From: Clostridiaceae bacterium
Lineage (GTDB): Bacteria > Bacillota > Clostridia > Lachnospirales > Lachnospiraceae
Length of the DNA: 58,450 nucleotides
Assembly: GCA_910574345.1 (NCBI GenBank)
Contig: CAJSZV010000028.1
Span: 1-58,450 of the forward strand
Reading direction: 5' to 3'
Notes under the pieces: model-generated
What the model saw: only the letters and a program-made list of their open reading frames with translations
What the model was told of the DNA's origin: nothing
The model's database searches: none
Part shown: piece after piece, positions 121 through 20,573 of the stretch
Position numbering within the stretch: the stretch's first letter is position 1
Layout of the letters: every line of letters starts with the position of its first letter
Made by a program: the position numbers and the translations under genes

Positions 121-1014
121 TCACATACAGTAAATTTTAAAACTTACTCCAAGTCCTACAAATTCAGAAAGCGATACCCCACCCCAGAAGAACAGCAGAT
201 GATTTTCAAAGATACCCATGAGGCAATTATCACCGAGGAAGTATGGGAAACGATACAGCGGTTAGCGCAACATCGAAGAAGGCGTACAAATGACCATGAG
301 CCTGGACTTTTCTCCGGTATGCTTTACTGTGCGGATTGTGGCTCTCCCCTTCACTTCTCCACTGGAAGTAATACTTCCGGCAAAGATCCCCGATATATCT
401 GTGGGGGCTATCGGAAACGAAGCGCCGAAAAATACTGCACCGCCCACTATATCCGCCAGCCCGTGCTGGAGGAACTGGTTCTTGAAAACCTGCGGCAGAT
501 CGTAAAACTTGCCACGGAGCAGGAAAAGGAATTTGTAAGGCTTATTATGAATTATACACTTTCCAAACAGCAGGAAGATGTAAAAACCCTGCAAAAGAAC
601 CTTGCGCCAAAAGAACATCGTATCTTAGAGTTGGATAGGATTATTTAAAAACTGTATGAAGACAATTTTTCCGGGAAACTGTCAGACGAACGCTACATGA
701 TTTTTTCCAGGGATTACGAGAATGAACAGCATATCCTGAAAACGGAGGTCGAGGACTTAAAGAACCAGATTGTTGAGCAGGATTCCAAGGTAGTCAATAT
801 CAACAGCTTTGTGGAACTTGCCAGGAAGTATACTTCCTTTGAAAAACTGACCCCTGGAATGCTTCACGAACTGGTTGAGAAGATTATCGTCCATGAAGGC
901 GATAAAAGCAGCGGCCACCGCATACAAAAAATTGAAATCTATTATTCTTTCGTTGGCGACCTGGAGAGTTCTCATGTGGTCGCCCAACGAACTCGAAAAA
1001 CACCAGCAGCGTGA
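121..1014 (+). pseudogene. large serine recombinase, 3' remnant (Tn4451/TnpX-like)
   Basis: This is the C-terminal part of a large serine site-specific recombinase of the type carried by integrative and mobilizable elements. Recognisable parts, in order, are the linker HTVNFKTY, the recombinase domain end (THEAIITEEVWE), a zinc ribbon with cysteines in LYCADCG, YICGGY and KYCTAHYIR, and a long coiled coil. The N-terminal catalytic domain with its serine is absent. An in-frame TAA at 646-648 interrupts the coiled coil after LDRII, and the same frame resumes with KLYEDNFSGKLSDERY through a TGA at 1012. The gene is thus truncated at the 5' end, probably by the repeat-bearing element at its left, and inactivated by a nonsense mutation. 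It marks a former mobile element at the window edge. Confidence 0.85.
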
Positions 1015-2861: not shown

Positions 2862-3668
2862 CTAAACACCAGCCTGCTTCCCCGCAGACAGTTCCACTTT
2901 CGACGCAAGATAGGCAAAGGCAAAATAGCAGTCACTTTGATCTCCCGACCGAATTACCTGCTCCATCACTTCATAACCTTTTTCCTTTTCTCCCTGCATC
3001 AGATAATAATTGCCTATGCCGAATCCCATGGTTACAATCTCAAGATCCGTCACTTTGTCAGGATCTGCCGAAAGAAGTTCCTCCGGTTTTTTTATCCCCT
3101 TATACATGAGCAGTCGGGCATAGTAAGCCGTGTTATCGCCGGGTTCCATATGCTCCGTAATACGATCCAGTACTTTCTCTGCCTCTTCATCCCATCCAAG
3201 ACGCTTAAGGGTCATGTAATACCAGTCACTGACGGCGATGAGCTCCGGCTGGGCATCTGTCAGCTCATAACACCTGCGGTAAGCCTTTGCCGCCCTCTTA
3301 TAATCCCGAAGAAGGAAAAAGGAAAGGCCCAGATGGTAAAATACATTCCAGTCATCAGGATTTAATCTGGCTGCTATGGTAAAATCCGCCGCCGCATCCT
3401 GAAAGCGCCAGCAGGACAGCATGCGATGAGCCCTGTGGCGGTAATACTCCCAGTTAAAAGGGTTGCAGGCAATGGCTAAGGCATAGCACTCCTCCGCCTC
3501 TCTCATAAGGGAAAGGCGGGCATAGGCATGACCCTTCTTCATCCACAGGTCTCCGTCTTCCGGATCTTTTTGCACCGCAGCCGCGGCTGCCTCGATCTGC
3601 TCGTCTTTGGGAATCTCGCATCTCTCCCAGCTGGCGGTCTCATAACTTTGGTTTATCTTAATGCTCAT
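2862..3668 (-). CDS. TPR-repeat protein, operon paralogue A (last gene)
   Basis: This 268-residue soluble protein consists almost entirely of tetratricopeptide-like helical repeats, with no signal peptide or membrane segment. It shares a family signature with three other proteins of the same operon: PFNWEYYRHRAHR, LNPDDWNVFYHLGLSF, AVSDWYYMTL, a PGD motif near residue 180, LLMYKGIKKPEELL and GFGIGNYYLMQG. TPR proteins usually act as scaffolds for protein partners; no catalytic residues are visible. The start ATG at 3666-3668 follows GGGAGGGATAAAC; the longer frame from a GTG at 3734 overlaps the upstream gene and lacks homology. It lies 13 bp downstream of paralogue B and is the last gene of the operon. 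Function is unknown. Confidence 0.85.
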   Translation of the reverse strand: MSIKINQSYETASWERCEIPKDEQIEAAAAAVQKDPEDGDLWMKKGHAYARLSLMREAEECYALAIACNPFNWEYYRHRAHRMLSCWRFQDAAADFTIAARLNPDDWNVFYHLGLSFFLLRDYKRAAKAYRRCYELTDAQPELIAVSDWYYMTLKRLGWDEEAEKVLDRITEHMEPGDNTAYYARLLMYKGIKKPEELLSADPDKVTDLEIVTMGFGIGNYYLMQGEKEKGYEVMEQVIRSGDQSDCYFAFAYLASKVELSAGKQAGV

Positions 3669-3681
3669 GTTTATCCCTCCC

Positions 3682-4524
3682 CTACTTTCCAAGACTCTGT
3701 TTGTCCGCCCGTGAAGCCAGGCAGGCAAAGGCACTGTACCACCGGCTGTTGGAAGCCGTCTCGATTACCTGGTCAAGAAGCTCTTCATACTTTTCCTGCT
3801 GCCCCTGATTCAGATAATAATTGGCAAGGCCAAAACCCTGAGTTACCACTTCCAGAGCCGCTCCTGCTTTAGGATCTACACCATTGAAAAGTTCCTCCGG
3901 CGAAACCAGCCCTTTGTATAAAAGGAGACGCTTAAAATAAGAACCGCTGACCGAATCATCAACCTCCATGTCTTTGGTAATGGGGTCCAGAAGTTTCTGT
4001 GCATCTTCCTTTCGTCCCAGACGCATAAGCGTCATATAATGCCAGTCTGTAACCGCCACCAGATCATCATTGCATTTATTCAGTTCCTCGCATCGGATAT
4101 AGGCCCAATCCGCTTTGTCGTATCTTCCCAGAAGGAACCAGGCCAGTCCCAGATGATACCATACATTCCAGTCATAGGGGTTCAGCCGGCTTGCTATGGT
4201 AAAATCAGCCGCTCCGTCGGCAAACAGTCCGCAGGAAATAAAACGATGCGCCCTGTGGCGATAGAACTCCCAGTTAAAGGGATCTATGGAAATCGCCTTG
4301 GAATAACACTCCGCCGACTCTCTGTAATATCCCATGCCTGCAAGACACAGTCCCTTCTCCATATACAGCCTGGCATTGTCCGGTTCCTTTTCAATTTTTT
4401 GCTCAATTTCCTCCAATTCCTCATTTCCATGAATCTCATTGCGTTCCCAGCTCATTACCTGATACGCCTGTACCAAAGTGCTGGAGCGCGCAAGATCCAG
4501 CCCTATCTTTTTCTCTTCGCTCAT
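3682..4524 (-). CDS. TPR-repeat protein, operon paralogue B
   Basis: A 280-residue soluble TPR-like protein and the closest paralogue of its downstream neighbour: both carry a SWER motif near the N-terminus, PFNWEFYRHRAHR, AAD/GAADFTIASRLNP, DWNVWYHLGLAWFLLGRY, VAVTDWHYMTLMRLGR and LLLYKGLVSPEELF. The pair looks like a tandem duplication. No signal peptide, membrane segment or catalytic motif is seen. ATG at 4524 has AGGAGG ten bases upstream. It lies between paralogues A and C, with about 86 bp to C. It was probably selected to bind a protein partner, perhaps another operon product; this is inference only. Confidence 0.85.
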   Translation of the reverse strand: MSEEKKIGLDLARSSTLVQAYQVMSWERNEIHGNEELEEIEQKIEKEPDNARLYMEKGLCLAGMGYYRESAECYSKAISIDPFNWEFYRHRAHRFISCGLFADGAADFTIASRLNPYDWNVWYHLGLAWFLLGRYDKADWAYIRCEELNKCNDDLVAVTDWHYMTLMRLGRKEDAQKLLDPITKDMEVDDSVSGSYFKRLLLYKGLVSPEELFNGVDPKAGAALEVVTQGFGLANYYLNQGQQEKYEELLDQVIETASNSRWYSAFACLASRADKQSLGK

Positions 4525-4610
4525 AGCAAACCTTCCTCCTTTTTATATCGGCTTCCATTTTGCCTCTGTATCCTCACAGCAGCATGCCATATCCCCTGCC
4601 GTCCAAAGGC

Positions 4611-5426
4611 TTATTTCCAGGTCTTCAGGCGTTCTGCCGCCCCATGCTCCGCAAAGCCGCCCCATGTCTCGTCACGTCCGGCAATCTTATCCAAAATCTT
4701 CTTTGCTTTCTCTTTCTCTCCTGTCACACACTCAAAATATACAGCCAGCCCATATGCTCCCGTTGCAAACATATGATCATCTTTTTTCTCTGCCTGTGCA
4801 AGGACCTCATCCGCTTGTAAAGTTCCGTTATAGACCAGAACACGCTCAAAATAACCTGCGGAATCACCTGGTATCATGTCCGGTCTGATACGCTTTGCAT
4901 ACTCTCTCATCTCATCAATCCGTCCCATCTTCATTAAGGTCATGCACATCCAGTCCACAGTACAGATGCGAAACTCATCAGAGGCAGCCAATTCATAACA
5001 GGTATCATAAGCCTTTAAAGCCCTCTCATACTCTCCCATCAAATGGTAGGAAAGTCCCAGATGATACCAGCAGTCCCAATTCTCAGGATTCAGGCGCAGG
5101 CCCATCTCAAAATCCGCCGCAGCCTGATGATACAGCCCCAGATTCACATAGGCGTGTCCCCTGTGACGGTACAAGAGGCATCGGAAAGGATCATAGCTGA
5201 TTCCCACAGAATACGCTTCCACTGCTTCACGGAAAAACATCTGCCTCCTCAGACACAGTCCAAGCTCCATATATCCGTCAGGGTCATCTTTATGTTCTTT
5301 TACGTACGCCTTAGCCCTGGCTGTCTCCTCACTGGCGGTCACATCCTCCCTTCTGTCAAAAATCTGGTTTTCCTTTGACGCCTTTAAGCTCATCTCCTTA
5401 TTTTCTCCTCTCTGTTCTTTTCCCAT
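4611..5426 (-). CDS. TPR-repeat protein, operon paralogue C
   Basis: A soluble TPR-like protein of 271 residues (260 if translation starts at the second methionine, ATG at 5391-5393, which has GAGGAG 11 bases upstream and may be the better start; the first ATG has only a weak site). The shared signature is present: YDPFRCLLYRHRGH, LRLNPENWDCWYHLGLSYHLMGEYERA, CTVDWMCMTLMKMGR, a PGD motif and VLVYNGTLQADEVL. It is more diverged than A and B. The gene begins 3 bp after the stop of the triple-Rid gene, so the two are surely co-transcribed and probably translationally coupled. Function is unknown. Confidence 0.85.
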   Translation of the reverse strand: MGKEQRGENKEMSLKASKENQIFDRREDVTASEETARAKAYVKEHKDDPDGYMELGLCLRRQMFFREAVEAYSVGISYDPFRCLLYRHRGHAYVNLGLYHQAAADFEMGLRLNPENWDCWYHLGLSYHLMGEYERALKAYDTCYELAASDEFRICTVDWMCMTLMKMGRIDEMREYAKRIRPDMIPGDSAGYFERVLVYNGTLQADEVLAQAEKKDDHMFATGAYGLAVYFECVTGEKEKAKKILDKIAGRDETWGGFAEHGAAERLKTWK

Positions 5427-5429
5427 CTT

Positions 5430-6509
5430 CTAATCGTCCAGCGACACAATAAACTGCAGTTCCACCTGGTTTCCTTCTCCCCATGGAACCGCCTCAACCA
5501 GAACCCCTGCCGGAGGACGCATCTGATCCCTCCAGGTTTTCATAGGACCTTCAAAGTCTTCATACTGCTCAATATCCCGTACAAAACCATAGGACATAAC
5601 AATATTTTCCCTCTTGTAGCCAAACTGCTCCATAAGTTCATTATACCGCTTCATAAGCCCTTCTGTCTGGCCCTTTAAATCCGCTGCCTGGAAATTGCTG
5701 TGACCGGAAAACCATGCCAGACCGTTATACTCCACTACCCGGCTCATTCCCGGCATCACCTCTCTCCGCACCAGATCAGGCTCATCCCCTATAGCTACAA
5801 ACAAGGCCACTTCCGCCTCGATTCTTGGGCCAAAGGAAGTATTCTGATTGGGGCATGCCTGAACCAATATGCCTGCCGGAGGATTAGTGCCGAAGAAATC
5901 CGCCAGAACCTTCATTGTCTCCTCATAACTGTCAATATTTTTCAAAAATCCATAGAGAGCCACTGCATTTTTCTTCTTCAGATGAAAGCGTTCGAACAGC
6001 TCCTCGTATCGGTGAAGAATTCCTTCCATCTGACTGCCTGCCGAATCCGCCTTAGGACTTACATGACCTGTAAAATATGCCATGCCGTCATAAAAAGCCA
6101 CTCTGCATCCGTTGGAAATATCATAGCGCTTAATCTTTGCCTCCGGATCCGTTGCGACAATGAACTGCAGTTCAATCAGAACATTGTCTCCTACAGGACT
6201 GTGCTGGATGGGAATTCCGCTCACCGTATACCCTGCCGGAGGATTCTTAGGATCATACCATTTGGTGTAGACCTTAATAAAATCCTTTTCGTCATCTGCA
6301 TTTTTCAAAAAGCAGGCTGCATAAATAATATTCTTTTTCAAAAGACCGAACTGCTCAAAAAGCTGATCATAACGCTTAAGTACTGCCTTGGACTGTTCCT
6401 CTAAGGTCTCGTACTGCGGCGCAGCATGGCCTGTAAAAAATGCCAGATTGTGGCTGAACACTACCCGGGCCGCCTGACCCGGACTCACATCCAGAAATTG
6501 AGAAGCCAT
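5430..6509 (-). CDS. three tandem Rid (RidA/YjgF) domains in one protein
   Basis: Members of the Rid family are normally about 125-130 residues and form homotrimers whose subunit interfaces hold a site for enamine/imine hydrolysis. This 359-residue protein contains three such domains in a row, roughly residues 1-120, 121-240 and 241-359. Each repeats FFTGHA/YFTGHV/WFSGHS, an RYDQLFEQF-like helix, and an end segment PPAG...(I/V)E(L/A)Q(F)IV. It could therefore fold as a covalent trimer. In canonical RidA the catalytic arginine lies in a PARS/T motif; here all three copies read PPAG, so classical 2-aminoacrylate deaminase activity is doubtful and the protein belongs with Arg-lacking Rid subgroups. 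ATG at 6509 follows GGAG. It sits 28 bp downstream of the ABC ATPase gene and 3 bp upstream of TPR gene C. Confidence 0.88.
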   Translation of the reverse strand: MASQFLDVSPGQAARVVFSHNLAFFTGHAAPQYETLEEQSKAVLKRYDQLFEQFGLLKKNIIYAACFLKNADDEKDFIKVYTKWYDPKNPPAGYTVSGIPIQHSPVGDNVLIELQFIVATDPEAKIKRYDISNGCRVAFYDGMAYFTGHVSPKADSAGSQMEGILHRYEELFERFHLKKKNAVALYGFLKNIDSYEETMKVLADFFGTNPPAGILVQACPNQNTSFGPRIEAEVALFVAIGDEPDLVRREVMPGMSRVVEYNGLAWFSGHSNFQAADLKGQTEGLMKRYNELMEQFGYKRENIVMSYGFVRDIEQYEDFEGPMKTWRDQMRPPAGVLVEAVPWGEGNQVELQFIVSLDD

Positions 6510-6537
6510 ATTTTTTCTCCTTTTTCTTTATTCATCG

Positions 6538-7503
6538 CTATTCACACCGAAAGCAGGCTGCCAGATGGCCCTTGCCGTATTCCTTTAACTGGGGGCGTTC
6601 CTGCCTGCACCGGTCCGTAGCATAAGGACAGCGGGTATGGAATACACAGCCCTTGGGCGGATTCACCGGACTTGGCACGTCTCCCTCCAGCGTCCCCGTC
6701 ATGGACTTAATATCCGGATCGGGAACCGGGATAGCATCCAAAAGAGCTCTCGTGTAAGGATGAAGAGGCTTGTCAAAAAGATCTTTCTTATCTGCAATCT
6801 CCATCATATTGCCCAGATACATGACCGCAATCCTGTCGCAGACATGCTTTACCACGCTTAAATTGTGAGAGATAAATATATAGGTTAAATTGTATTTCCT
6901 TTGAAGCTCCTTCATCAGATTTAAAATCTGTGCCTGGATCGAAACATCCAGCGCAGATACGGGTTCATCACATACCACAAGAGACGGTCTTAATGCCAGA
7001 GCTCTTGCCACACCGATCCTCTGTCTCTGCCCACCGGAAAATTCATGAGGATACCGGGTGTACTGCTCCGCCTTCAGGCCCACATCATACATTAGTTCGG
7101 CAACCCTGTTATATCTTTCCATGGCATTGCCCATGTGATGGACGATTAAAGGCTCCTCTATACATCTTCCTATGGAAAAACGGGGATCCAGGGAAGAGTA
7201 AGGGTCCTGAAAAATAATCTGAATCTTCTGGGTCAATTCCATAACCTCCCGCCGGTTAGCGTTAAGGCTTAAATCTTTTCCCTCAAACAGTACGGTTCCG
7301 GCTGTCGGTTTGTTCAGGCGAACCAGGGTCTTTCCCGTAGTTGACTTGCCGCATCCGGACTCACCTACGATACCGAAGGTTTCTCCCTCATAGACGGAGA
7401 AGCTAATGTCATCCACTGCCTTGACAAAAGCCTTTTCCGATTTCTGGCGGACAGGGTAATAGACTTTCAGATTCTTCACTTCCAGTATTTTTTTTCGTTC
7501 CAT
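6538..7503 (-). CDS. dipeptide/oligopeptide ABC transporter ATPase (DppF/OppF type)
   Basis: The ATP-hydrolysing subunit of a peptide or nickel-type importer, acting at the cytoplasmic face of the membrane. Walker A is GESGCGKST, the Q-loop follows, the signature is SGGQRQRIG, Walker B is LVVCDEPVSALD, and the H-loop is FISHNLSVV. The C-terminal oligo/dipeptide extension with cysteines (GCVFHTRCPYATDRC...) is characteristic of the Opp/Dpp class. At 321 residues the length is normal. The ATG at 7501-7503 overlaps the stop of the preceding ATPase gene by one base (TGATG), so the two are translationally coupled. Substrate specificity cannot be read from the ATPase. Confidence 0.93.
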   Translation of the reverse strand: MERKKILEVKNLKVYYPVRQKSEKAFVKAVDDISFSVYEGETFGIVGESGCGKSTTGKTLVRLNKPTAGTVLFEGKDLSLNANRREVMELTQKIQIIFQDPYSSLDPRFSIGRCIEEPLIVHHMGNAMERYNRVAELMYDVGLKAEQYTRYPHEFSGGQRQRIGVARALALRPSLVVCDEPVSALDVSIQAQILNLMKELQRKYNLTYIFISHNLSVVKHVCDRIAVMYLGNMMEIADKKDLFDKPLHPYTRALLDAIPVPDPDIKSMTGTLEGDVPSPVNPPKGCVFHTRCPYATDRCRQERPQLKEYGKGHLAACFRCE

Positions 7504-8486
7504 CAATCCACACCCCCATCATAAAGAAAACAGCGAACCATATGCCCCGGCTTTGCTTCTTTCAGTTCCGGTTTCTCTTTTAGGCACCGCGGGCCGCACT
7601 TTGTGCATCTTGGCGCAAAACGGCATCCCTTTGGCAGTTCTCCCGGAGACGGCACCATACCCGGAATACTGGGCAGCTCCTCCAGATCTTCGTCTGTCAG
7701 TTTAGGAATAGATGCTAACAGGCCTATGGTATAGGGATGGAGGGGATCCTTATAAGCCGTGCGGACATCGCAGCTTTCCACTGCCTGTCCGCTGTACATA
7801 ACCATAATCCGCTGAGCAATCTGAGCTACGATTCCAAGATCATGAGTAATTAATATAATGGACGTGCCTGTCTTCTCTTTCAATTCTTTCAAAAGGCGCA
7901 GAATCTGAGCCTGAATGGTCACGTCAAGGGCCGTAGTGGGTTCATCCGCAATCAGCAGTTTGGGGTTGCATGCCAGAGCCATGGCAATCATGACTCTCTG
8001 GCGCATGCCTCCGGAAAGCTGATGAGGATAATCATCCGCCACTTTTTCAGGACTTGGAATTCCCACCATCCGCAGCATATCCACGGCCTTCTCGTGAGCC
8101 TGGGCCTTTCCCATATTCTGGTGGAACCGAAAAGACTCCGCAATCTGCCGTCCCACAGTAAACACGGGATTCAAGCTGGTCATAGGCTCCTGAAACACCA
8201 TGGATATCTCGTTGCCCCTGATGGCCTGCATCTGCTTTTCCGTCTTTTTTAATAAATCTTCCCCGTTATAAATAATCTCACCGTCAAGAATCTTACCTGG
8301 CGGACTGGGAATCAGACCAAGAATGGAAAGTGAAGTAACGGATTTGCCGCAGCCCGATTCCCCTACGATGGCAAAGGTCTCCCCCTGCTCTACCTCGAAA
8401 TCCAGCCCGTCTACTGCCGGCACCACACCCTCTTCCGTGTAGTAATATGTTTTCAGATTTTTTACCTGAAGCATTTTTTCAGCCAC
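7503..8486 (-). CDS. dipeptide/oligopeptide ABC transporter ATPase (DppD/OppD type)
   Basis: Second ATPase of the peptide importer, forming a heterodimer with the following gene product. Walker [10 protein letters not shown], signature LSGGMRQRV, Walker [14 protein letters not shown]-loop LITHDLGIV, and the DppD-type C-terminal cysteine segment ([15 protein letters not shown]). The longest frame begins at a GTG at 8498 that overlaps the AAGGAGG ribosome site, so I prefer the GTG at 8484-8486, which sits 11 bases behind that site; ATG at 8474 is a further option. The gene follows the DppC permease gene closely. Assignment to the family is secure, substrate unknown. Confidence 0.92.
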
Positions 8487-8502
8487 TGTATCCGTCACCT
8501 CC

Positions 8503-9363
8503 TTAATTGTTCTTCAGTTTCGGGTCAAGGGCATCCCGAAGACCGTCGCCTACAATACTGAAACTCATAACAACTAATGTAATCGCAATACCCGGAACCA
8601 AAACTCCCATGGGATACGTACGCACAACCTCCCGCATGCCGGAAAGCATGGCTCCCCATTCCGCTTCCGGCGGTGTCACTCCAAGTCCTAAGAAGGACAG
8701 GGAGGAAGCTGTCAGAATAGCGCTTCCCAGGCTCAAGGTCACATTGACAATAATCTGAGACATGGCATTGGGAATAATGTGGGTAAAGATGATCCGCATA
8801 TCACTTTCCCCCATGGTATAACAGGCCTGCACATACTCGGAATTTTTCAGGCTGATGACACAGCCACGCACCATTCGGGTCAGTCCCGGTATGGTGAAAA
8901 TCGTAATGGCAATCACCGTATTGACGGAGCCTGCTCCCAGAATCGCCACGATGGCAATGGCAAGCAAAAGTCCGGGAAATGCCAGAAGCACATCCACAAA
9001 ACGGCTGATCACCGCGTCAACCCAGCCGCTGAAATATCCGGCACACACTCCAAGAAGAATTCCGATGGCAGCCCCTGAGAGAACTCCGGCAAAACTGATG
9101 GAAAGAGAGGTTCTGGCTCCATGTATCATGCGGGCAAGGGTATCACGGCCCAGATTATCTGTTCCTAAAGGATGCTCCAGGGTTATGGGACCGTATTTTT
9201 TCATAACACTCTGTTTTAACGGATCAACCGTCCACACCATGGGACCGAAGATTGCAATGAGCACAAAAAGGATCAGGATGACTGCTGCCAGAACAGAAAT
9301 CTTCCGGCGCATAAAACGGCGGAGAATGGGATGTTTTTCTAAAAATGTTTTTTCTTTCTTCAT
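8503..9363 (-). CDS. peptide ABC transporter permease (DppC type)
   Basis: Inner-membrane permease of 286 residues with the architecture of DppC/OppC/NikC: a cytoplasmic N-terminus rich in Lys/Arg, a first hydrophobic segment (VLAAVILILFVLIAIFG), a periplasmic-type loop with the family motif HPLGTDNLGRD, five further helices, and an EAA loop (YVQACYTMGESD...HIIPN). It pairs with the DppB-type permease encoded just upstream. ATG at 9363 follows GGAGG. Nine bp separate it from its upstream partner. Only the transport class can be stated; peptides are the usual cargo. Confidence 0.93.
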   Translation of the reverse strand: MKKEKTFLEKHPILRRFMRRKISVLAAVILILFVLIAIFGPMVWTVDPLKQSVMKKYGPITLEHPLGTDNLGRDTLARMIHGARTSLSISFAGVLSGAAIGILLGVCAGYFSGWVDAVISRFVDVLLAFPGLLLAIAIVAILGAGSVNTVIAITIFTIPGLTRMVRGCVISLKNSEYVQACYTMGESDMRIIFTHIIPNAMSQIIVNVTLSLGSAILTASSLSFLGLGVTPPEAEWGAMLSGMREVVRTYPMGVLVPGIAITLVVMSFSIVGDGLRDALDPKLKNN

Positions 9364-9372
9364 CTCTGCCTC

Positions 9373-10293
9373 CTAATCATATTTGACTCTGGGGTCAACG
9401 GCTGCATACAAAAGATCCACTGCCGTATTGACAACGACAAAGGTGAAAGCCAGCACCAGAATGGACCCCTGTACTGCCGGGTAATCTCTGTTTCCCACGG
9501 AATCCACCACAAACCGTCCGATTCCCGGAATGGAAAATACGGTCTCCACCAGGGTGGCACCTGCAAGAAGGCCGCCGAACCGCAGGCCCACTGCTGTCAG
9601 AATAGGAATGAGAGCGTTTTTAAACCCATGAAGATAAATAACAATATGCTCCGGTACGCCTCTTGCCCTTGATGTACGGATATAGTCCTGATGGATTACA
9701 TCCAGCATGGCGCTTCTGGTGGTCCTGGCGATGGAACCTACGGCCTGAGCACCCAGGGTAATGATGGGAAGCACTGCTCCCTTCCAGGAATCCATGCCTA
9801 TACTGGGAAACCATTTCAGCTGAAGACAAAAAATCAGCATTAAAATCAGGGCCAGGAAAAATGAGGGGGTAGAGACCGCCATAAGAGAGGTTACCGCTAT
9901 GATGTTATCTGCCATCCGGTTGCGGTGAACAGCCGCTATAATACCTAGAATAATTCCCACCAAAGCTCCGAACACCGTTCCGCCTATGGCTAAGATCAGC
10001 GTCTTTGGAAAACGCTTTGCCAGCTCCTTTACCACAGGCTCACCGGAAAAGATGGAAGTACCCAGGTCCCCCTTGAGAGCATTGCCCACAAAACGTATAT
10101 ACTGCTGAGGAAGAGGGTCGTTAAGCCCTAACCTCTCCCGCTCAAATTCCTTGGTGTCTTTCGGTACGTCAAACCCCAGCATCAGGTCTACCGGATCTCC
10201 CGGAATCATCCGGACCATAAGGAATACGATCAGGGAAAGAACCAGCATCATGGGGATCATCTGCAAAATCCGCCTCATAATATATTTCAACAT
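9373..10293 (-). CDS. peptide ABC transporter permease (DppB type)
   Basis: Inner-membrane permease of 306 residues, DppB/OppB/NikB family. Visible features are the N-terminal RRILQMIPMMLVLSLIVFLM helix, the family motif FLMVRMIPGDP, and an EAA loop (YIRTSRARGVPEHIVIYLHGFKNA spread over about residues 215-245). Six transmembrane helices are expected. ATG at 10293 follows AGGAG. It is separated from the binding-protein gene by 72 bp that contain a strong hairpin, an arrangement often used to lower expression of permeases relative to the binding protein. Confidence 0.93.
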   Translation of the reverse strand: MLKYIMRRILQMIPMMLVLSLIVFLMVRMIPGDPVDLMLGFDVPKDTKEFERERLGLNDPLPQQYIRFVGNALKGDLGTSIFSGEPVVKELAKRFPKTLILAIGGTVFGALVGIILGIIAAVHRNRMADNIIAVTSLMAVSTPSFFLALILMLIFCLQLKWFPSIGMDSWKGAVLPIITLGAQAVGSIARTTRSAMLDVIHQDYIRTSRARGVPEHIVIYLHGFKNALIPILTAVGLRFGGLLAGATLVETVFSIPGIGRFVVDSVGNRDYPAVQGSILVLAFTFVVVNTAVDLLYAAVDPRVKYD

Positions 10294-10315
10294 CAGAATC
10301 TCTCCTTTAAAGTTA

Positions 10316-10353
10316 AGCGGCAGGAATTCCTTTTATGGAACCTTCCTGCCGCT
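10316..10353 (-). terminator. intercistronic stem-loop after the peptide-binding protein gene
   Basis: AGCGGCAGGAA (10316-10326) pairs with TTCCTGCCGCT (10343-10353), and TTCC/GGAA extends the stem around a short loop. There is no good T run on the leftward transcript, so it is more likely a partial terminator or 3' mRNA stabiliser than a full stop. It would favour excess binding protein over permease. Confidence 0.65.
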
Positions 10354-10365
10354 CTGGGGTATCAA

Positions 10366-12018
10366 CTATTTCCTGCAGCGAAGATGCACTAAATCCATTG
10401 TGTTAGTTGGACTAACAGAAAAGTTTTCGATTTTATCAGAAAGTGCATATACATTTTTGCGCAAATTCATGTAGCATCCAAAGGGATCCTCATAGAACAA
10501 AATTCTGGCAATCTCTTCATAGCATGCATTCCGTTCCTTTTCATCCATGGTGACGGAACCTTTCTCCAGCAATTCGTCTACCTGTGAATTAGAATAGAAA
10601 CCATAGTTGTTGATATTGGTATCCGCTGTGTGGATAATGCGGTAGAGTAAAGTATCTGCATCGGCATCACCGCCGGAACCCATAATAAACATATCCCATC
10701 CAAACTGGCTGTTGAACTCTTCGGGAGTAAATCCTCCCCATGCAGAGCTGAATACGGCTTTCTCCACTACTTCCAAAGTAACATTAATGCCTGCTTCCTT
10801 TAACTGTTCTACCAGAATCTCTCCCATCTCCACGCCGCGGTTATATACAGCAGTGGTCATAATGGTCATATCGAATCCGTCGGCATATCCGGCCTCAGCC
10901 AGAAGTGCTTTCGCTTTCTCCACATCATAGGGCAGAACGCCTACAGATGTATAACCAGCTACGGAAGGAGCCATAACAGAATCTATAGGCTTTTCTCCAA
11001 GTCCGCTGTACAGGTAATCACAGATGGTATCCCGGTCAATGGCATAGCAGATTGCCAGACGTACCTTGGGATCCTGAAGAGGAAGGTTGTCGGACTTACA
11101 GTTAAACTGGAATAAATGACATCCGTTTCCGTCTGTTTTACTTACACTGATGCCGTCAATCCCATCAAGACGCACCGCGTCGTCTGGTGATACACCGTCT
11201 GCAATGTCCGCCTGCCCTGTTTCGATGGCTATGGCTCTGGAAGTCTGTTCTGACACAATCTTCATGACAATCTTTTCTGTTTGAGCTACATCGCCATAAT
11301 AATCATCAAACCTTTCAAAAACCATTTCCTCTCCCTTTGTCCAGCCGCCGCATTTAAAGGGACCGCATCCGTCTACGCTTTCTGCTGTACTTCCAAGATC
11401 CGTTCCGTATTTTTCGATATATTCCGGATTCAGCACAGCCGTCTGATGTTTTGCAAAAGACTGGAGGAAGAAAGATTTGGGCTCTGCCAGAGTAACTACA
11501 AAGGTGTAATCATCCGCAGCCTTTGCTGACTCAATGTAGCTGTAATTAGTTGTATAACGAACCGGATTTTCTTTGTCCAGAAGACGGTCAAAAGTAGCTT
11601 CTACATCATGGGCGGTACAGTGGCGTCCTGAATGGAAATACACGTCTTCTCTCAAATGGAAGGTCCACACCATCTTGTCGTCACTGGACTCATAGCTCTC
11701 AGCAATTTTGCACACAATGTTGTTATCACTGTCAAATCCCAAAAGTCCGTCATAATACTGAGGAATTACCTTGGAATTGGAAACATTCATCTGCGGGTCA
11801 AGATAATCCTGATCATTGCCGATTACCCATGTAATGGTGTCTTTATACTCTCCGTCTCCCCCTGCGCCCTGAGAAGCATCCTGAGTCTGGGAGCCTGATT
11901 CTGGGGCCTGGGTTGAACCTGCGCCGCCCTGCCCGCTGTCTGACTGCCCTGAACCGCAGCCTGCTGCCATGGATAAGGTCAAAACAAGAGCCATAGCCAT
12001 ACAAATTTTCTTTTTCAT
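10366..12018 (-). CDS. peptide-binding lipoprotein of ABC transporter (SBP family 5)
   Basis: The extracellular solute receptor of the importer, 550 residues. A lipoprotein signal peptide ends in MAAGC with C21 as the lipidated residue, followed by a low-complexity Ser/Gly/Gln linker to about residue 50. The mature part matches the SBP_bac_5 family (DppA/OppA-like): ITWVIGNDQDYLDPQMN, the internal AEATFDRLLD-type segment, GCGPFKCGGWTKGEEMVFERFDDY and late VRLAICYAIDRDTI. It delivers peptides or similar molecules to the DppBC channel. ATG at 12018 follows GGAGG. It lies 12 bp after the first operon gene. Which ligand it binds cannot be told from sequence. Confidence 0.92.
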   Translation of the reverse strand: MKKKICMAMALVLTLSMAAGCGSGQSDSGQGGAGSTQAPESGSQTQDASQGAGGDGEYKDTITWVIGNDQDYLDPQMNVSNSKVIPQYYDGLLGFDSDNNIVCKIAESYESSDDKMVWTFHLREDVYFHSGRHCTAHDVEATFDRLLDKENPVRYTTNYSYIESAKAADDYTFVVTLAEPKSFFLQSFAKHQTAVLNPEYIEKYGTDLGSTAESVDGCGPFKCGGWTKGEEMVFERFDDYYGDVAQTEKIVMKIVSEQTSRAIAIETGQADIADGVSPDDAVRLDGIDGISVSKTDGNGCHLFQFNCKSDNLPLQDPKVRLAICYAIDRDTICDYLYSGLGEKPIDSVMAPSVAGYTSVGVLPYDVEKAKALLAEAGYADGFDMTIMTTAVYNRGVEMGEILVEQLKEAGINVTLEVVEKAVFSSAWGGFTPEEFNSQFGWDMFIMGSGGDADADTLLYRIIHTADTNINNYGFYSNSQVDELLEKGSVTMDEKERNACYEEIARILFYEDPFGCYMNLRKNVYALSDKIENFSVSPTNTMDLVHLRCRK

Positions 12019-12030
12019 AAATTATACCTC

Positions 12031-12783
12031 CTACTCTTCAGGTACTATATAATCAATTCCCAGTTCGTCAAGCTGCCCCATAGACTGCTTTACTGCGAAA
12101 AGATTGCGGTTGTCCCGGCTCTCAGCAAGTTCTTTGAAAAGCGCCGTTGCCTTCTCTGTCTGTCCTTCATAATACAGATAATTGGCAAGTCCGAAGGTGA
12201 GCATCTGCTCATAGATTCGGGGCCGTTCCGGATTCTTGATTTCTTTCATGCGCTCTTCCACAAAATTTTCCGGTTTATAATATCCCTTATAAAGCAGGGT
12301 GCGGGCCAGGTAATCCCCGTCCTCCGTAGGCATATCGGGAGTGATGCACTCCAGCGCCTTTTGGGCTTCCTCCTTTTGCCCCAGCTTCATGCAGGTCATC
12401 CAGTACCAGTCAACTGCTGCAGGAAGCGCGTTGATTCCATATTTTTTCATGTTCACATGTGATTTTCCCATGGCTGCTTTGGCCTCCTCATACATCCCGG
12501 ACAAATAGGAGGCAACTCCCAGATAATACCAGCATTCCCAGTCTTCCGGATTAATCATAGCCGCCAGCTTTAAATCGCTTGCAGACTGGGTATACATCTC
12601 ACGGCCAATATACTTGCGGCCTCTCCAGAAGCGCATCAGGGAGTCAAAGGGATTGTAAACCAGTCCTTTTGAAAAAATCTCCACAGCCTCGTCCACACGG
12701 TTTTCGTCCAGCAGCCACAATCCATATTCCCGATGGAGATTGGGATTATAAGGATCGTTTTTCAGCTTTTCTTCAAAATTCAT
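12031..12783 (-). CDS. TPR-repeat protein, operon paralogue D (first gene)
   Basis: A 250-residue soluble TPR-like protein that opens the operon. It shares with paralogues A-C the ordered signature YNPFDSLMRFWRGR, INPEDWECWYYLGVASYLSGMY, AVDWYWMTCMKLGQ, a DMP..DGD motif, TLLYKGYYKPENF and FGLANYLYYEGQ. No signal peptide or catalytic motif is visible. Having one paralogue before the transporter genes and three after the Rid gene argues that the TPR proteins belong to the system and were not simply captured next to it. ATG at 12783 follows AAGGAG. A near-consensus promoter lies about 80 bp upstream. Confidence 0.85.
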   Translation of the reverse strand: MNFEEKLKNDPYNPNLHREYGLWLLDENRVDEAVEIFSKGLVYNPFDSLMRFWRGRKYIGREMYTQSASDLKLAAMINPEDWECWYYLGVASYLSGMYEEAKAAMGKSHVNMKKYGINALPAAVDWYWMTCMKLGQKEEAQKALECITPDMPTEDGDYLARTLLYKGYYKPENFVEERMKEIKNPERPRIYEQMLTFGLANYLYYEGQTEKATALFKELAESRDNRNLFAVKQSMGQLDELGIDYIVPEE

Positions 12784-12861
12784 TGTATCTCTCCTTCCGC
12801 CTGGTGTGTGTCTTCCAGTTACAAAAACCGCTCATGCACGTCAGGACTTTAAATTTTTATG

Positions 12862-12890
12862 ATTATAACAATTTAATCAACTAAAGTCAA
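12862..12890 (-). promoter_or_regulatory. sigma-A promoter of the TPR/peptide-transport operon
   Basis: Read leftward, -35 TTGACT (12885-12890) and -10 TATAAT (12862-12867) are separated by exactly 17 bp. It points into the first TPR gene, whose ATG is about 80 bp further on. This is one of the best promoter matches in the window. Confidence 0.8.
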
Positions 12891-13118
12891 ATGCACTTTG
12901 ACCGTTTTGAGAGAAATTTCTGGCTATTTATCACATAATATCGGAATATAAACTAGCCATTTTTTGATATTTATAAACCAGTATTCCCTTTCTAGGATTA
13001 AATATTGTATGTTTTTCGGAATTTATAGAGATATATAAGAATTTTTATAATAGTCAATTTTTGTTATTCAATTCGTCGATTTTTGAGTTGTTTTCTGTAA
13101 TCGAAAACCTCTCTCGTC

Positions 13119-13147
13119 TTGACACCGGTCTTAAATGATTTTATAAT
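13119..13147 (+). promoter_or_regulatory. sigma-A promoter of the AraC-type regulator gene
   Basis: -35 TTGACA (13119-13124) and -10 TATAAT (13142-13147) both match the consensus fully, with a 17-bp spacer. The regulator ATG at 13224 lies about 70 bp beyond the expected transcription start. Confidence 0.85.
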
Positions 13148-13223
13148 AAAGAATTATATATGAAAATTCTGAAACACCAAGAAAATTTGCAATACATTGG
13201 CAGACGCGCCAGGAGCTTTGAAC

Positions 13224-14072
13224 ATGAGTAAAAATCCCAGTATCCTTTCTGACGGGTATATCTTCGGCCTGATTGAGAATCTATACTATATCCCTCATCT
13301 TCACAAAGGGATTGAGGGTGTATATGTGCGCCATGGTTCCATTGTCGCCACTCTGGATGGGAAAAACTATACGCTCCAGGAAGGTGATTTCTGCCTGATT
13401 ATGCCCTTCTGCTGCCACAGCTTTCAGACTCCCCGATATTCGGAGGTTCTGGGGTTCAGCATTATCTCTGATGATGTCCTTCTTACCAACCGCTATTTTT
13501 CAGGAAAATATAAACTGATCAATCCCGTATATCGCGATGGACAATACCCTCCGCCCGTATTCCAATTACTGAACCTGCTGACAGACGCAGAGACAGAAGA
13601 CGGGATGTTGGTTCATATCGGTCTTCTTCATGCTGTCATCGGCTACCTTTTTGACACCAACCCGCCCAAAGCCGTTGAAAAATCAGAATTAACCCAGGCG
13701 GAACAGATACTTTTCTATCTCCACGAAAACTATCAAAAGCCTATTACCCTGACGGGAGCGGCGGAAAGCCTGAATATGTCGCAATTCAAGCTTTCCCGCA
13801 TCTGCAGCCAGGAAATAGGCATTCATTTTCATACATATTTAAAGTCCATGCGCATATCTTCTTCCAAAACCAAACTTGCTTTTACAGATTATAATATCAG
13901 CGACATCGCCTCTCTCTGCGGTTTTGAAAGCCTGCGCACTTTTAACCGGGCATTCCAGGAAGAAACCGGGATCACCCCCAGGGAGTACCGAAAAAATCAT
14001 AAAAATAAACTGTCCATGGATGTGCGGACTTCCCAGCCTACCAAGAGAAACTTTACCCATGTGATGACTTGA
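13224..14072 (+). CDS. AraC-family transcriptional regulator
   Basis: A 282-residue regulator with an N-terminal cupin-type sensing domain (IPHLHKGIEGVYVRHGSIVATLDGK spread over about residues 20-50, then EGDFCLIMPFCCHSF) and a C-terminal double helix-turn-helix (about residues 165-265; LTGAAESLNMSQFKLSRIC and ISDIASLCGFESLRTFNRAF, ending GITPREYRK). It probably controls the divergent peptide-transport/TPR operon, whose regulatory region it shares. ATG at 13224 was chosen because AGGAG lies eight bases upstream; the longer frame starts from TTG at 13197 with no site. It converges on the lyase gene, with only 29 bp between the stops. Confidence 0.9.
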   Translation: MSKNPSILSDGYIFGLIENLYYIPHLHKGIEGVYVRHGSIVATLDGKNYTLQEGDFCLIMPFCCHSFQTPRYSEVLGFSIISDDVLLTNRYFSGKYKLINPVYRDGQYPPPVFQLLNLLTDAETEDGMLVHIGLLHAVIGYLFDTNPPKAVEKSELTQAEQILFYLHENYQKPITLTGAAESLNMSQFKLSRICSQEIGIHFHTYLKSMRISSSKTKLAFTDYNISDIASLCGFESLRTFNRAFQEETGITPREYRKNHKNKLSMDVRTSQPTKRNFTHVMT

Positions 14073-14101: not shown

Positions 14102-16117
14102 TTACCACTGCAAAACCGTCATGGATTCCGGCTTCTTATTCAGATCGCACACCATGGTTCTGCCAAGGCCGTATACTCCCTCAATGCCGTTATAGTCAAC
14201 GCCGTTGCCCACTTCATGATGCAAAAATACGACTCCGGTTTTTCGTTTTCCAACCTGGATGATATATCCTTCTGCATCCTGGGGGCTCATTGCCTGGCCG
14301 CTGACAGCGTTAAGAACCGGCTCCGGGGTAATTTCCACGGTCCCGCCCTCTTGACGGCTTACCAAAATAGTAGTCAGAGTCTTTGTGTCTTTTTGGCTGA
14401 CGCTTAAAGATACGGTCTCTTCCAGCTGGTTGTAATGCCTGGAGATCATTGCTGTATCTTTCTCCATGGAGGCAGCTTTTCCTTCGGAAAATGACTGCAT
14501 CACAAAACTGGTTTTATTCCCTTTTCCCTCCGCCCTATTTTCTGTCGCCGACAGACGGATGGTCTCTCCAAAATGGAACATCTGAACGATTTCACCGGTT
14601 ACATTTCCAAAAAAAGTATCACTGACAGCCAGAATATCAAAATCTACCGCTACAATACGCCGCCGCACCACAATTCCCTGAGCCTCATATCCTCCGTGAG
14701 CTCCCTCGATAAACAAATACCCATCCTTTTTGCACACCTGGTTGGGATAGCATTGAGGAAGTCCGTAATACGTCCAGGTATCTTTACTCTCTGCGTATTC
14801 CTGTCCTTTTATCATAGGCACATTGTGGGCCCTGGCCTTTTTTAGCTCATATCTTTCAGCTGTATCCGTGTAGGTATAGCGCCCGCTGTCGGTCAGCACT
14901 TCTTCCCCGTTCAGCCACAATCCGATATGCAGCTTATCCTGATGTCCATGACCTCCGCCTAATGGCCCGTTTATAAAATACAGCCATCCGGCATTTTCTT
15001 CCCAGCTGCTGCGTATTACAACCTGCCCCGATTGGGGAAACTCCATAAGGCCTGCTTTCAGCTCTCCTGCCTCTAAGTTTTGATACTCTTCAAATCCCTG
15101 AGAACCGAACATCCAGATACTCTCATAATCCAGGTGCCTGAAGGCTCCTGCCTTTAAACGGCTGTTTTTGAGGATCAGCGCTGCCTGACTCAAAAGGTCT
15201 CTCACATCCGTATCATCGGAATCTCCTGTCATGGGCTGGCGTCCTGCCGGGTTTTTCAGTCCCAAAGTCCCAAAGGCCATGTTCTCAATGATTCCAAGCT
15301 CTTCTTTTGTAAAGGGTGAATCATTCCAGATATCCCCAATCCTCAGTACCTCCAGGTAAGCCATAAAAACTTCATTGTGGTACATAGTGGAAGCTTCCCA
15401 GTGCATCCCGTCATCCATAACCTGGGTATGGAGACCATTCTTTAAGTACCGCTGTGCATTCTCCACATACGCCTCATTCTCCAGAATAAAGCCCAGGAGG
15501 TAAAGTCCTGTATATTCCATGATACCCCAATTGCTCTTTTTGGAAAACCCTGTATTGGGATTCTCATACAGTCTTTTTGCGTGAACCTCAAGTCCTTCCA
15601 AAAACCTGGCTGCCACATCCTCTGTCACTGCCGGACTGTCCGCGCACAGAGCCATGGCACGAACCCAATAGTCCGCCCGAAGTCCCGCCTCCAGGGTACG
15701 CCAGGTAAGCTTTGCGCTTTCATCAGTCCATGGTACGTTCTGAACCCAGTCCTGAATCTGATATGCAAGTTCTTTGACATAGACTTCGTCACCGGTCAGG
15801 CCATATGCCTGCCCTAAACAGATCCAATAGCGGTGGCGGTTCATCTGATATGCAAACTCCGGATCATCATGGAGGGTGTAATTCCAGTCAATTTTTTCCG
15901 AAAAATGTACCGGCTCCTGAGTCTGTTCCATATCCCATGGAAGCTGAAATAAAAATGTATGTTCCAATACTTCGTCCGCCGTTTTCATTGTCCGTCGGCA
16001 GTCGTCCGGCCAATATTCACGGCACAATCGGGCGCACTGCTCTTTCACAGCTGCCCCTGCCGCCATTTTTTCCTTGAAACGGTTCCATTGCCTTCTCTGT
16101 CTCTCATTCAATGCCAT
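14102..16117 (-). CDS. heparinase II/III-like polysaccharide lyase, cytoplasmic
   Basis: A 671-residue lyase-like protein: an N-terminal alpha/alpha toroid (about 1-340) followed by a heparinase II/III-like beta-sandwich domain. Likely active-site residues, by analogy with PL12-type lyases, are N196 in KKSNWG, Y246/H247 in STMYHNE, and the HGHQDKLH cluster at 390-397 preceding DSGRYTY. Such enzymes cleave uronic-acid-containing polysaccharides (heparan, chondroitin, hyaluronan, alginate or exopolysaccharides) by beta-elimination. No signal peptide is present, so it should act inside the cell on imported oligomers. The ATG at 16117 lies inside the end of the sulfatase gene (14-bp overlap) behind AAGGAG, implying translational coupling. 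The exact substrate cannot be read off, but the sulfatase and GH88 neighbours favour a sulfated glycosaminoglycan. Confidence 0.88.
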   Translation of the reverse strand: MALNERQRRQWNRFKEKMAAGAAVKEQCARLCREYWPDDCRRTMKTADEVLEHTFLFQLPWDMEQTQEPVHFSEKIDWNYTLHDDPEFAYQMNRHRYWICLGQAYGLTGDEVYVKELAYQIQDWVQNVPWTDESAKLTWRTLEAGLRADYWVRAMALCADSPAVTEDVAARFLEGLEVHAKRLYENPNTGFSKKSNWGIMEYTGLYLLGFILENEAYVENAQRYLKNGLHTQVMDDGMHWEASTMYHNEVFMAYLEVLRIGDIWNDSPFTKEELGIIENMAFGTLGLKNPAGRQPMTGDSDDTDVRDLLSQAALILKNSRLKAGAFRHLDYESIWMFGSQGFEEYQNLEAGELKAGLMEFPQSGQVVIRSSWEENAGWLYFINGPLGGGHGHQDKLHIGLWLNGEEVLTDSGRYTYTDTAERYELKKARAHNVPMIKGQEYAESKDTWTYYGLPQCYPNQVCKKDGYLFIEGAHGGYEAQGIVVRRRIVAVDFDILAVSDTFFGNVTGEIVQMFHFGETIRLSATENRAEGKGNKTSFVMQSFSEGKAASMEKDTAMISRHYNQLEETVSLSVSQKDTKTLTTILVSRQEGGTVEITPEPVLNAVSGQAMSPQDAEGYIIQVGKRKTGVVFLHHEVGNGVDYNGIEGVYGLGRTMVCDLNKKPESMTVLQW

Positions 16118-17504
16118 CTCGCTCCTTCTCCCATAAAAACGGGTCGTCCAGCATAGCTAAATATTCTTTCAGCAGCCTCCTGAATTCTAATATTTCAGGT
16201 TCTTCACAATCTCTCTCTATCACCTGAGGATGAATCTGCCATGGGTCGTGAATATCATCATACAGGTATTCTTTCTGTTTTTCCCCAGGCATATAGCCGT
16301 TGGTTATGACATAAGTGTATTCCGGCGTCTTTATCCCTCTCCATCCAAATGCCTTATGAGTCATGCCCAGTTTTGCAAATGCAGAGACGCTTTCCGCAGA
16401 TCCGGGATAAGAACAGAGAAACATATAATCCGGCGACTCTTCTTCTTTTCCCAATACGGAAGCGGCATGGCTGATTCCTTCACAGGTGTCCGGTACGGGA
16501 AGTCCAAGAAGTTCAAGAAGAGTAGGCATATGATCAGGGCTGGCAAATACCGTGCTGCATTTTCCCGGACAGATCCGATTTTTCTGTCTCATCACCAAAG
16601 GGATATGTATGGACTCTTCATACCACACATTCTTGCTCATAAGTCCGTGAGACCCCAGCATCTCTCCATGGTCCGCCGATAAAACAACCAGGGTGTTTTC
16701 TTCCATGTTGTTTTCTCTCAGATAACTTAAGATCCGGCCAAACTGTTCGTCAATTCCGTAGACAGCTGCAAAATACTGTCTGGCGATGACTTCCATCTCA
16801 GGCGTTCTCTTTTCCTCCGGCACATTGGGACGCCACTTGATCTCAAGATCCTTAAACTTCTCATAATAAGGTTCCGGAACCAGCTCATAGGGAAGATGAG
16901 GAGGATTATAAGACACAAAAAGGGCAAAGGGGCACTCTCCATCCTTATGATCTCCCAGGTATTCCAAAGCTTTGTCCGTCTCGTACTGCGCCGACCATTT
17001 TCCCGGACAGATCTGCTCCGGGGAATCCGCCCAATAATGGGGGTTTAAGTGATCGTCGCAGGCTCCATAGGACAGCCAATACTCAAAACCCTGCCTCCGC
17101 TCTCCCGGAGGCGTATAGGCATCCCAGTTCTCTGCGCCTGACTTAGGATGAGAGGTAAAATTCTGCTCCGGCGAATCCAGATGCCATTTTCCGATATAAC
17201 CGGTGTGAAATCCTTCGTCCTGCAGCACATTGCCGATGCAGGTTTCCTGAGGCTTTAACATGATCTTCTCTTCCAGACCGATTTTGCAGTTGGTCCACAG
17301 ACCCACAGAAAACGGATACTTTCCTGTCATCAGACTGCCCCGATGGGGCGTGCATAAGGGGAAGGTACTGTATGCATTGTCAAAGCAAAGACTTTCCCGG
17401 ACAAAACCGTCCATATTAGGGGTAATCACCTGATCTTCCCGGTTGCAGGCCATGGCATGATAGCGCCATTGGTCAGCGAAGATATAGATTAAGTTTGGTT
17501 TCAT
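16104..17504 (-). CDS. Cys-type sulfatase (sulfatase family S1), cytoplasmic
   Basis: A 466-residue arylsulfatase-family enzyme that removes sulfate esters from sugars. The N-terminus KPNLIYIFADQWR carries the first metal ligands, and the maturation motif is C51-T-P-H-R55 within LCTPHRGSLMTGKYP, where the cysteine is converted to formylglycine. Later family motifs are GYIGKWHLDS and LSADHGEMLGSHG. Being Cys-type in an anaerobe, it needs an anaerobic sulfatase-maturating radical-SAM enzyme (anSME), which is not in this window. There is no signal peptide. It lies between GH88 and the lyase and should desulfate imported glycosaminoglycan fragments. ATG at 17504 follows AAGGA. Confidence 0.92.
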   Translation of the reverse strand: MKPNLIYIFADQWRYHAMACNREDQVITPNMDGFVRESLCFDNAYSTFPLCTPHRGSLMTGKYPFSVGLWTNCKIGLEEKIMLKPQETCIGNVLQDEGFHTGYIGKWHLDSPEQNFTSHPKSGAENWDAYTPPGERRQGFEYWLSYGACDDHLNPHYWADSPEQICPGKWSAQYETDKALEYLGDHKDGECPFALFVSYNPPHLPYELVPEPYYEKFKDLEIKWRPNVPEEKRTPEMEVIARQYFAAVYGIDEQFGRILSYLRENNMEENTLVVLSADHGEMLGSHGLMSKNVWYEESIHIPLVMRQKNRICPGKCSTVFASPDHMPTLLELLGLPVPDTCEGISHAASVLGKEEESPDYMFLCSYPGSAESVSAFAKLGMTHKAFGWRGIKTPEYTYVITNGYMPGEKQKEYLYDDIHDPWQIHPQVIERDCEEPEILEFRRLLKEYLAMLDDPFLWEKERDGIE

Positions 17505-17528
17505 TATGATTCCTTTCTTATGCTCCGG

Positions 17529-18707: not shown

Positions 18708-18722
18708 AATGCGTCACTCCTT

Positions 18723-19550: not shown

Positions 19551-19563
19551 AACAATTCTCCTC

Positions 19564-20481: not shown

Positions 20482-20505
20482 ATGCAACCTCCTTTATATT
20501 TTAAG

Positions 20506-20551
20506 ATACTCTCGGAATCTCTTGTTTTGCCTGAAGGGATTCCGAGAGTAT
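20506..20551 (-). terminator. intercistronic stem-loop after the sugar-binding protein gene
   Basis: A perfect 14-bp stem: ATACTCTCGGAATC (20506-20519) pairs with GATTCCGAGAGTAT (20538-20551). No T run follows on the leftward transcript, so a partial terminator or mRNA stabiliser is likely, lowering permease relative to binding protein. The peptide operon uses the same arrangement. Confidence 0.7.
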
Positions 20552-20573
20552 TCTCTGTTAACGGGTATTTGAC

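Follow-up and report, generated by a model that had tools for sequence, protein, structure and literature searches.

A recurrent pairing of TPR proteins with a Dpp-type importer: an operon with four TPR paralogues, a triple-Rid gene and a divergent AraC-type gene

Why would the genes of a peptide importer be bracketed by four related tetratricopeptide repeat (TPR) genes? The question is raised by a 58,450-base contig (C28; the whole of it is called the window here) in the 5.6-Mb draft genome of a gut-type Clostridiaceae bacterium. Ten minus-strand genes run from 12783 down to 2862 in the order TPR-D, SBP_bac_5, DppB, DppC, DppD, DppF, triple-Rid, TPR-C, TPR-B, TPR-A, and a plus-strand AraC-type gene diverges from them. 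All were found where an earlier note had placed them, and its picture of a ten-gene operon with small gaps behind one near-consensus promoter holds up on open reading frames (ORFs), Pfam domains, gap lengths and the promoter itself. Judged by gene order, the TPR-linked Dpp importer is a real and recurrent unit. With moderate confidence, we take the locus to encode a Dpp/Opp-type importer that is controlled by AraC, takes up short peptides or similar compounds and has TPR adaptors of its own in the cytoplasm. The genes are:

12031..12783, minus strand: TPR-D, the operon's first gene, 250 aa, TPR repeats (Pfam), no signal peptide by eye
10366..12018, minus strand: SBP_bac_5 substrate-binding lipoprotein (SBP), 550 aa (Pfam 8e-87)
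9373..10293, minus strand: DppB-type permease, BPD_transp_1 (Pfam)
8503..9363, minus strand: DppC-type permease, BPD_transp_1 (Pfam)
7503..8498, minus strand: DppD-type ATPase, ABC_tran and oligo_HPY (Pfam)
6538..7506, minus strand: DppF-type ATPase, ABC_tran and oligo_HPY (Pfam)
5430..6509, minus strand: triple-Rid protein, 359 aa, three Ribonuc_L-PSP stretches (Pfam)
4611..5426, minus strand: TPR-C, TPR repeats (Pfam)
3682..4524, minus strand: TPR-B, TPR repeats (Pfam)
2862..3668, minus strand: TPR-A, TPR repeats (Pfam), start refined to 3668
13224..14072, plus strand: cupin and AraC-type regulator, HTH_AraC and Cupin_2 (Pfam); the longest ORF begins at TTG 13197

ATG 13224 is the probable start of the regulator, since the corresponding position is where its orthologue in G303, a second species of the genus, begins. 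Within the operon the gaps measure, in gene order, 12, 72, 9, 4, -4, 28, 3, 86 and 13 bp; none of the 13 terminator-like sites predicted in the window falls in them, and by eye a purine-rich stretch precedes the start codon in nine of the ten (TPR-C is the weak one). An SBP_bac_5 protein, two BPD_transp_1 permeases and two oligo_HPY ATPases together in one operon make up a Dpp/Opp-type importer, with all five component types in the standard order, although here they are flanked by the four TPR paralogues and the triple-Rid gene. The Dpp/Opp family models also cover nickel, opine and glutathione importers. DppF exceeds the NCBIfam cut-off for the dipeptide-importer ATPase subfamily (420.7 vs 408); for the other four subunits, none of the NCBIfam models listed reaches its cut-off. 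Nine gene pairs were compared between the window species and G303 (SBP and AraC left out, and only the first part of the Rid gene used), and the ratio of nonsynonymous to synonymous differences per site (pN/pS) was 0.13-0.20 for the TPR genes, 0.07-0.10 for DppBCDF and 0.11 for the first part of Rid, values low enough to indicate purifying selection on all nine. We quote pN/pS because the synonymous rate was saturated for DppD, DppF, TPR-B and TPR-C.

Is the association with the importer more than an accident of this genome? The TPR family is rare: its profile matched 4 of 145 relatives, at least 3 of 391 class genomes and at least 5 of 299 phylum genomes, counts that all include the own genome, as well as 3 of the 22 family f45 genomes. 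Per genome, at most 6 candidates were scored in the class search, at most 8 in the phylum search and at most 5 in the SBP control described below, so genes may have been missed. Profile members match by construction; the TPR profile (A4) was built from the window, G303, G397, G758, G371 and G329, with no row from the four genomes newly found in the phylum search, and the SBP profile (A3) from the SBPs of the window, G397 and G758. Eleven distinct genomes were found with the family. A Dpp-type importer adjoins the TPR gene in six of them (the window's own genome, G303, G397, G758, G960 and G977, representing four families); in two it does not, and three are cut by contig ends about 770, 136 and 353 bp from the TPR gene (G371, G729, whose TPR gene contains an in-frame TGA, and G782).

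The linked importers are also alike. G960, from another family of the phylum (f203), has the identical order TPR-SBP-DppB-C-D-F, with an SBP 41% identical to that of the window (418 bits) and DppBCDF 61-65% identical. In G397 and G758 (both f45) the SBP is 38-40% and DppBCDF 60-69% identical; across these three genomes DppB stands at 61-64%, DppC at 60-63%, DppD at 65-69% and DppF at 64-65%. For comparison, the own genome has 8 SBP_bac_5 matches, of which the other 7 are only 24-32% identical to the operon's SBP. G977 (f167) has a different order, SBP-DppB-DppC-TPR-GntR-M19 dipeptidase-DppD, and an SBP only 26% identical. Eight SBP_bac_5 matches per 5.6 Mb would place about 2% of a genome within 6 kb of such a gene. 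Against this rough estimate, which ignores kinship and the possibility that other genomes have more importers, six of eight decided cases lie far above chance. Because the family is so rare, repeated adjacency to the importer would be unexpected by chance. The earlier note's two claims on this point, that the TPR proteins are coupled to a Dpp importer and that their adjacency is not accidental, are thus upheld by conserved synteny in G303, G397, G758, G960 and G977, and chance assembly of the ten genes was rejected on the same synteny. Judged by title and opening of the abstract, no paper retrieved from the open-licence literature in searches aimed at a pairing of TPR or Rid proteins with an importer, or at related families, describes the TPR/Dpp unit.

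It could still be that this is an ordinary nutrient peptide operon in which the TPR genes hitch-hike, as paralogues whose housekeeping role has nothing to do with import. TPR proteins are common scaffolds, and genes of this family occur without an adjoining importer in G329 and G865. We consider this explanation unlikely, however: adjacency recurs in 6 of 11 genomes and four families, both with orthologous SBPs and (in G977) with a poorly related one, and pN/pS on the TPR genes is low.

The genes around the unit in relatives point to a nutritional role. Its neighbours in G397 are genes for M19 and M24 peptidases, an AstE/AspA-type hydrolase and an aldehyde:ferredoxin oxidoreductase. These neighbours recur in G758, except that the AstE/AspA-type gene is matched there over only a 46-residue piece. 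An M19 dipeptidase gene is found near the unit in G977 and an M24 peptidase gene in G960. Further along in f45 are genes that we take to be phosphotransbutyrylase-, butyrate-kinase- and 2-oxoacid-oxidoreductase-like. Together these neighbours look like peptide fermentation.

What, then, might the TPR proteins contribute? The four are true paralogues with 28-51% pairwise identity. In the tree, TPR-A and TPR-B are sisters (97/96), TPR-C groups with the single TPR protein of G371 (99/98), and TPR-D groups with that of G960 (89/96), both on long branches that make this placement unsure. Our reading is that the copy in first-gene position (TPR-D) may be the importer's original partner, that TPR-C may be an old separate subtype and that A and B may stem from a later duplication. 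Residues invariant over 17 alignment rows of the family include R91, D107, Y123, W161 and Y196. G329 carries a tandem fusion of two TPR-family units (L019:8952-10451), which overlaps a GFO_IDH_MocA oxidoreductase gene by 4 bp. The AlphaFold2 (AF2) model of TPR-B is all-helical (mean predicted local distance difference test score, pLDDT, 87), and a Foldseek search of the PDB with it returned NlpI or NlpI complexes at ranks 1-12, followed by designed TPRs. The NlpI chains (256-270 residues) matched over nearly the full length with a query-normalised TM-score (TMq) of 0.63-0.66 and 16-18% identity. In the published description, NlpI recruits peptidases and brings an endopeptidase and a protease together (PMC11211486). 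It is this combination, NlpI as the nearest fold and as a recruiter of peptidases, that leads to the adaptor reading. The likeness lies in the TPR adaptor fold, for which NlpI is the nearest solved structure (TPR-B model only); against the NCBIfam NlpI equivalog model TPR-A, -C and -D score 16-44 bits vs a cut-off of 250, and for TPR-B no match is listed.

The reading of the locus as a regulated peptide importer with its own adaptors starts from the operon anatomy, the divergent regulator, the conserved promoters and operator-like repeat set out below, and the recurrence of TPR, SBP and DppBCDF near peptidase genes. The part of it in which a TPR adaptor works at the importer's inner face is an analogy-based proposal, about evenly balanced between right and wrong. 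Several points weigh against it. First, the identity to NlpI is only 16-18%, and many TPR folds look alike. Second, NlpI is a lipoprotein of the outer membrane in the E. coli envelope, whereas the window's TPR proteins lack a signal peptide by eye. Third, the window operon contains no peptidase gene, so any peptidase held by an adaptor would have to be encoded elsewhere. Fourth, no importer was found beside the TPR gene within at least 7 kb on each side in G329 and G865, nor an SBP orthologue elsewhere in G303 (best 31% identical), whose locus lacks the gene. Finally, a control search with the SBP profile (1e-80, 283 class genomes) matched at least 19 genomes; above a next tier of 273-387 bits stood the own genome (979 bits) and G397 (1076 bits), both profile members. 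That tier includes four f45 genomes (G430, G483, G505 and G610) in which no TPR-family match was found, and the pairing is therefore a trait of this one importer subfamily and does not extend to Dpp importers in general.

The regulatory features lie between the AraC and TPR-D genes:

12862..12890, minus strand: operon promoter TTGACT-17-TATAAT, 11/12 matches, TG before the second hexamer
13119..13147, plus strand: AraC-gene promoter TTGACA-17-TATAAT, 12/12 matches
13053..13084, minus strand: putative AraC operator, two AAAAATYGRC half-sites 22 bp apart, same 22-bp spacing in G303
12956..12965, minus strand: possible third half-site with one mismatch, in a block conserved in the G303 alignment, matched by eye

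A promoter scan alone is weak here: shuffled sequences average 21.9 promoter-like sites, and the window has 24. At the matching place in G303, however, both promoters recur: the alignment keeps the hexamers and spacing of the operon promoter, and the same hexamers and spacing were read for the AraC gene by eye on the minus strand and then aligned. Apart from the promoter and direct-repeat blocks, the alignment of this gap is patchy. The pattern AAAAATYGRC-N12-AAAAATYGRC occurs nowhere else in the window. Operators of the AraC family typically have half-sites spaced 21-22 bp apart. Otherwise the gap holds only tiny ORFs, with no resemblance between the window and G303 by eye.

Those ORFs bear on a signalling alternative, in which signal peptides delivered by the importer would be bound in the cytoplasm by the TPR proteins, acting as RRNPP receptors of the Rap-like kind that lacks a helix-turn-helix domain (HTH), and AraC would be the output. 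In published accounts, RRNPP receptors are TPR proteins that bind peptides imported via Opp-type systems (PMC9765709, PMC10569065), and here importer and TPR genes share one operon, the TPR proteins have no HTH by Pfam, as in Rap (the one RRNPP group described as lacking it; PMC9765709), and residues such as R91, D107, Y123, W161 and Y196 are invariant over the 17 rows. On the other side, no Rap, NprR, PlcR or PrgX title appears in the best 50 of 96 fold matches of TPR-B (E up to 0.001), no conserved propeptide ORF was seen between AraC and TPR-D (a point blunted by the many receptors described without an adjoining propeptide gene; PMC9765709), and the peptidases adjoining the unit in relatives point to nutrition. 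We regard signalling as decidedly unlikely.

G303 shows how self-contained the block is. It is the only other genome with the triple-Rid arrangement in the samples searched, and its version is spread over two contig ends, one (L017) with AraC, TPR-D, DppB, DppC, DppD and DppF and the other (L002) with Rid, TPR-C, TPR-B and TPR-A; contig 71 is record CAMTAF010000071.1. Both ends carry the same 29 bases within a repeat, an exact overlap which suggests that they adjoin. The AraC orthologue is divergent as in the window and is split over two frames in this metagenome-assembled genome. The Rid gene is broken by a frameshift and a stop (the second, broken part was left out of the pN/pS comparison), and a tandem repeat of about 270 bp takes the place of the SBP gene. 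Decay may account for these lesions, as may an assembly fault caused by repeats. Repeat units of about 87 bp lie in the operon's intergenic gaps (L017:9640-9908, with three copies in L017; L002:1-60; L002:2842-3010), where the SBP is missing and where the contigs end, and have no match in the window. The flanking genes in G303 differ from those of the window (a short-chain dehydrogenase gene and, as identified by eye, FAD-oxidoreductase-like and xanthine-dehydrogenase-like genes), and operon plus regulator therefore form a self-contained block. In G303 the AraC gene has a full serine recombinase gene about 5 kb away (L017:565-2208), and at the contig edge of the window (199-1014) there are two recombinase-domain fragments (Zn_ribbon_recom, DUF4368). 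Plasmid origin was rejected: TPR-B matched 1 of 72,556 plasmid records by tblastn (24% identity), and the triple-Rid protein matched 29, none over 80% of the query. Anti-phage defence was rejected as well, there being no PADLOC match at 0.001 for TPR-B, TPR-D, triple-Rid or AraC.

In the window the block directly adjoins a second locus:

14102-25640: glycosaminoglycan-type locus with heparinase II/III, sulfatase (SGSH_C), GH88, an SBP_bac_1 sugar importer and a two-component system with an AraC-type response regulator

The operon might serve this neighbour, for example by importing glycopeptides or breakdown products, and the double-Rid gene of G329 is also near a GH88-family gene; but the same operon has other neighbours in G303 and the sugar locus has an importer and two-component system of its own, which makes such a service very unlikely.

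What of the triple-Rid protein? Its second and third domains are 37 and 39% identical to the first, and Pfam, the AF2 model and Foldseek all assign the Rid fold. At the column of the catalytic arginine (R105 of TdcF), present in three RidA controls and in G702, all three domains have glycine (PPAG), with the glutamate kept. In published work, replacing this arginine by alanine nearly abolishes activity, and Rid subfamilies without it, termed 'mysterious', presumably serve other functions (PMC4433059). Imine deamination is therefore unlikely here, and so is the action on enamine or imine intermediates that the earlier note mentioned. The triple-domain architecture itself is already known: '3x-RidA' fusions such as EF_0115 are presumed to be covalently linked trimers (PMC4433059), and the window protein shares their three tandem domains in one chain, with glycine for the catalytic arginine in all three of its own. 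Its AF2 model (predicted TM-score 0.80, mean pLDDT 73.9, alignment of three rows only) finds its best full-length matches in chorismatases and cyclic amide hydrolases (cyanuric acid hydrolase/barbiturase, which have a three-domain pseudo-trimer fold), at TMq 0.42-0.58 and 8-12% identity, single Rid proteins following from rank 21 onward. The Toblerone fold of these hydrolases, which use a Ser-Lys dyad (PMC4051656), is described as having likely evolved through concatenation of trimeric YjgF monomers (PMC3758960).

The Rid gene is no fixed companion of the unit. Multi-Rid proteins of this type are rare: across 391 class genomes, matches to the Rid domain profile (1e-12) were confined to the own genome and two others whose proteins are single-domain, and the triple-Rid protein (1e-20) matched 1 of 299 family genomes, namely its own. 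Multi-Rid proteins were found in 3 of the 11 TPR-family genomes, beside TPR genes only in the two of the window's genus; in the other 8 (G397, G758, G960 and G977 among them) none was found, in draft genomes of which some are incomplete (G729 77%, G865 81%). Rid as a core part was rejected on this count, and the gene, by its distribution and residues, is a lineage-specific addition without the deaminase arginine. The co-occurrence of multi-Rid, importer and TPR genes put forward as a check by the earlier note thus stands for TPR with the Dpp importer, in other families too, and fails for multi-Rid. Among the 145 relatives, the three genomes with a multi-Rid match are a subset of the four with the TPR family, a hint of a Rid/TPR link even where the genes are unlinked, as in G329, albeit from only two independent lineages. 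TPR and Rid genes away from the transporter, which the note said would count against it, are in part what G329 shows: the two lie on separate contigs, and tblastn with the window proteins found no importer near either within about 8.5 kb or more on each side. The double-Rid gene there, also Arg-less, lies near the GH88-family gene (L020:9430-10347 and 11123-12202) and near aldolase-, dehydrogenase- and sugar-kinase-like genes by eye. That a Rid imine/enamine deaminase detoxifies imported compounds with the TPR proteins as assembly partners, in line with the note's idea of a Rid/TPR assembly, is hardly credible: both genomes of the genus share the order Rid-TPR-C-TPR-B-TPR-A and multi-Rid genomes make up three of those four relatives (two of the three being one genus), but an arginine needed for activity (PMC4433059) is glycine in all three domains, multi-Rid was not found in G397, G758, G960 and G977, and the gene is broken in G303.

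Under the reading of a peptide importer with its own adaptors, a TPR protein would dock at the importer's cytoplasmic face and keep incoming peptides, or a downstream peptidase, near the two ATPases, much as NlpI does with peptidases in the E. coli envelope. In the window's own genus the adaptor would have been multiplied to four and joined by the fused-trimer Rid protein, which probably does not deaminate imines and may instead bind or hydrolyse a released small molecule in its interdomain clefts. A bolder version, which we offer only tentatively, is that this is a new class of peptide importer, in which a cytoplasmic TPR family would receive incoming peptides and pass them to peptidases or a regulator. 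The fused-trimer Rid that accompanies four TPR receivers in the Hungatella-like lineage could then be a surviving link from Arg-dependent Rid deaminases to Toblerone-type hydrolases and have a novel activity, either enzymatic or ligand-binding.

To our knowledge, the cytoplasmic reception of peptides after ABC import has been little studied, and a TPR protein that recurs as the dedicated partner of a Dpp-type importer would offer a handle on it. An Arg-less triple-Rid protein with stable gene neighbours would, in turn, give a concrete test case for the Arg-less Rid proteins called 'mysterious' (PMC4433059).

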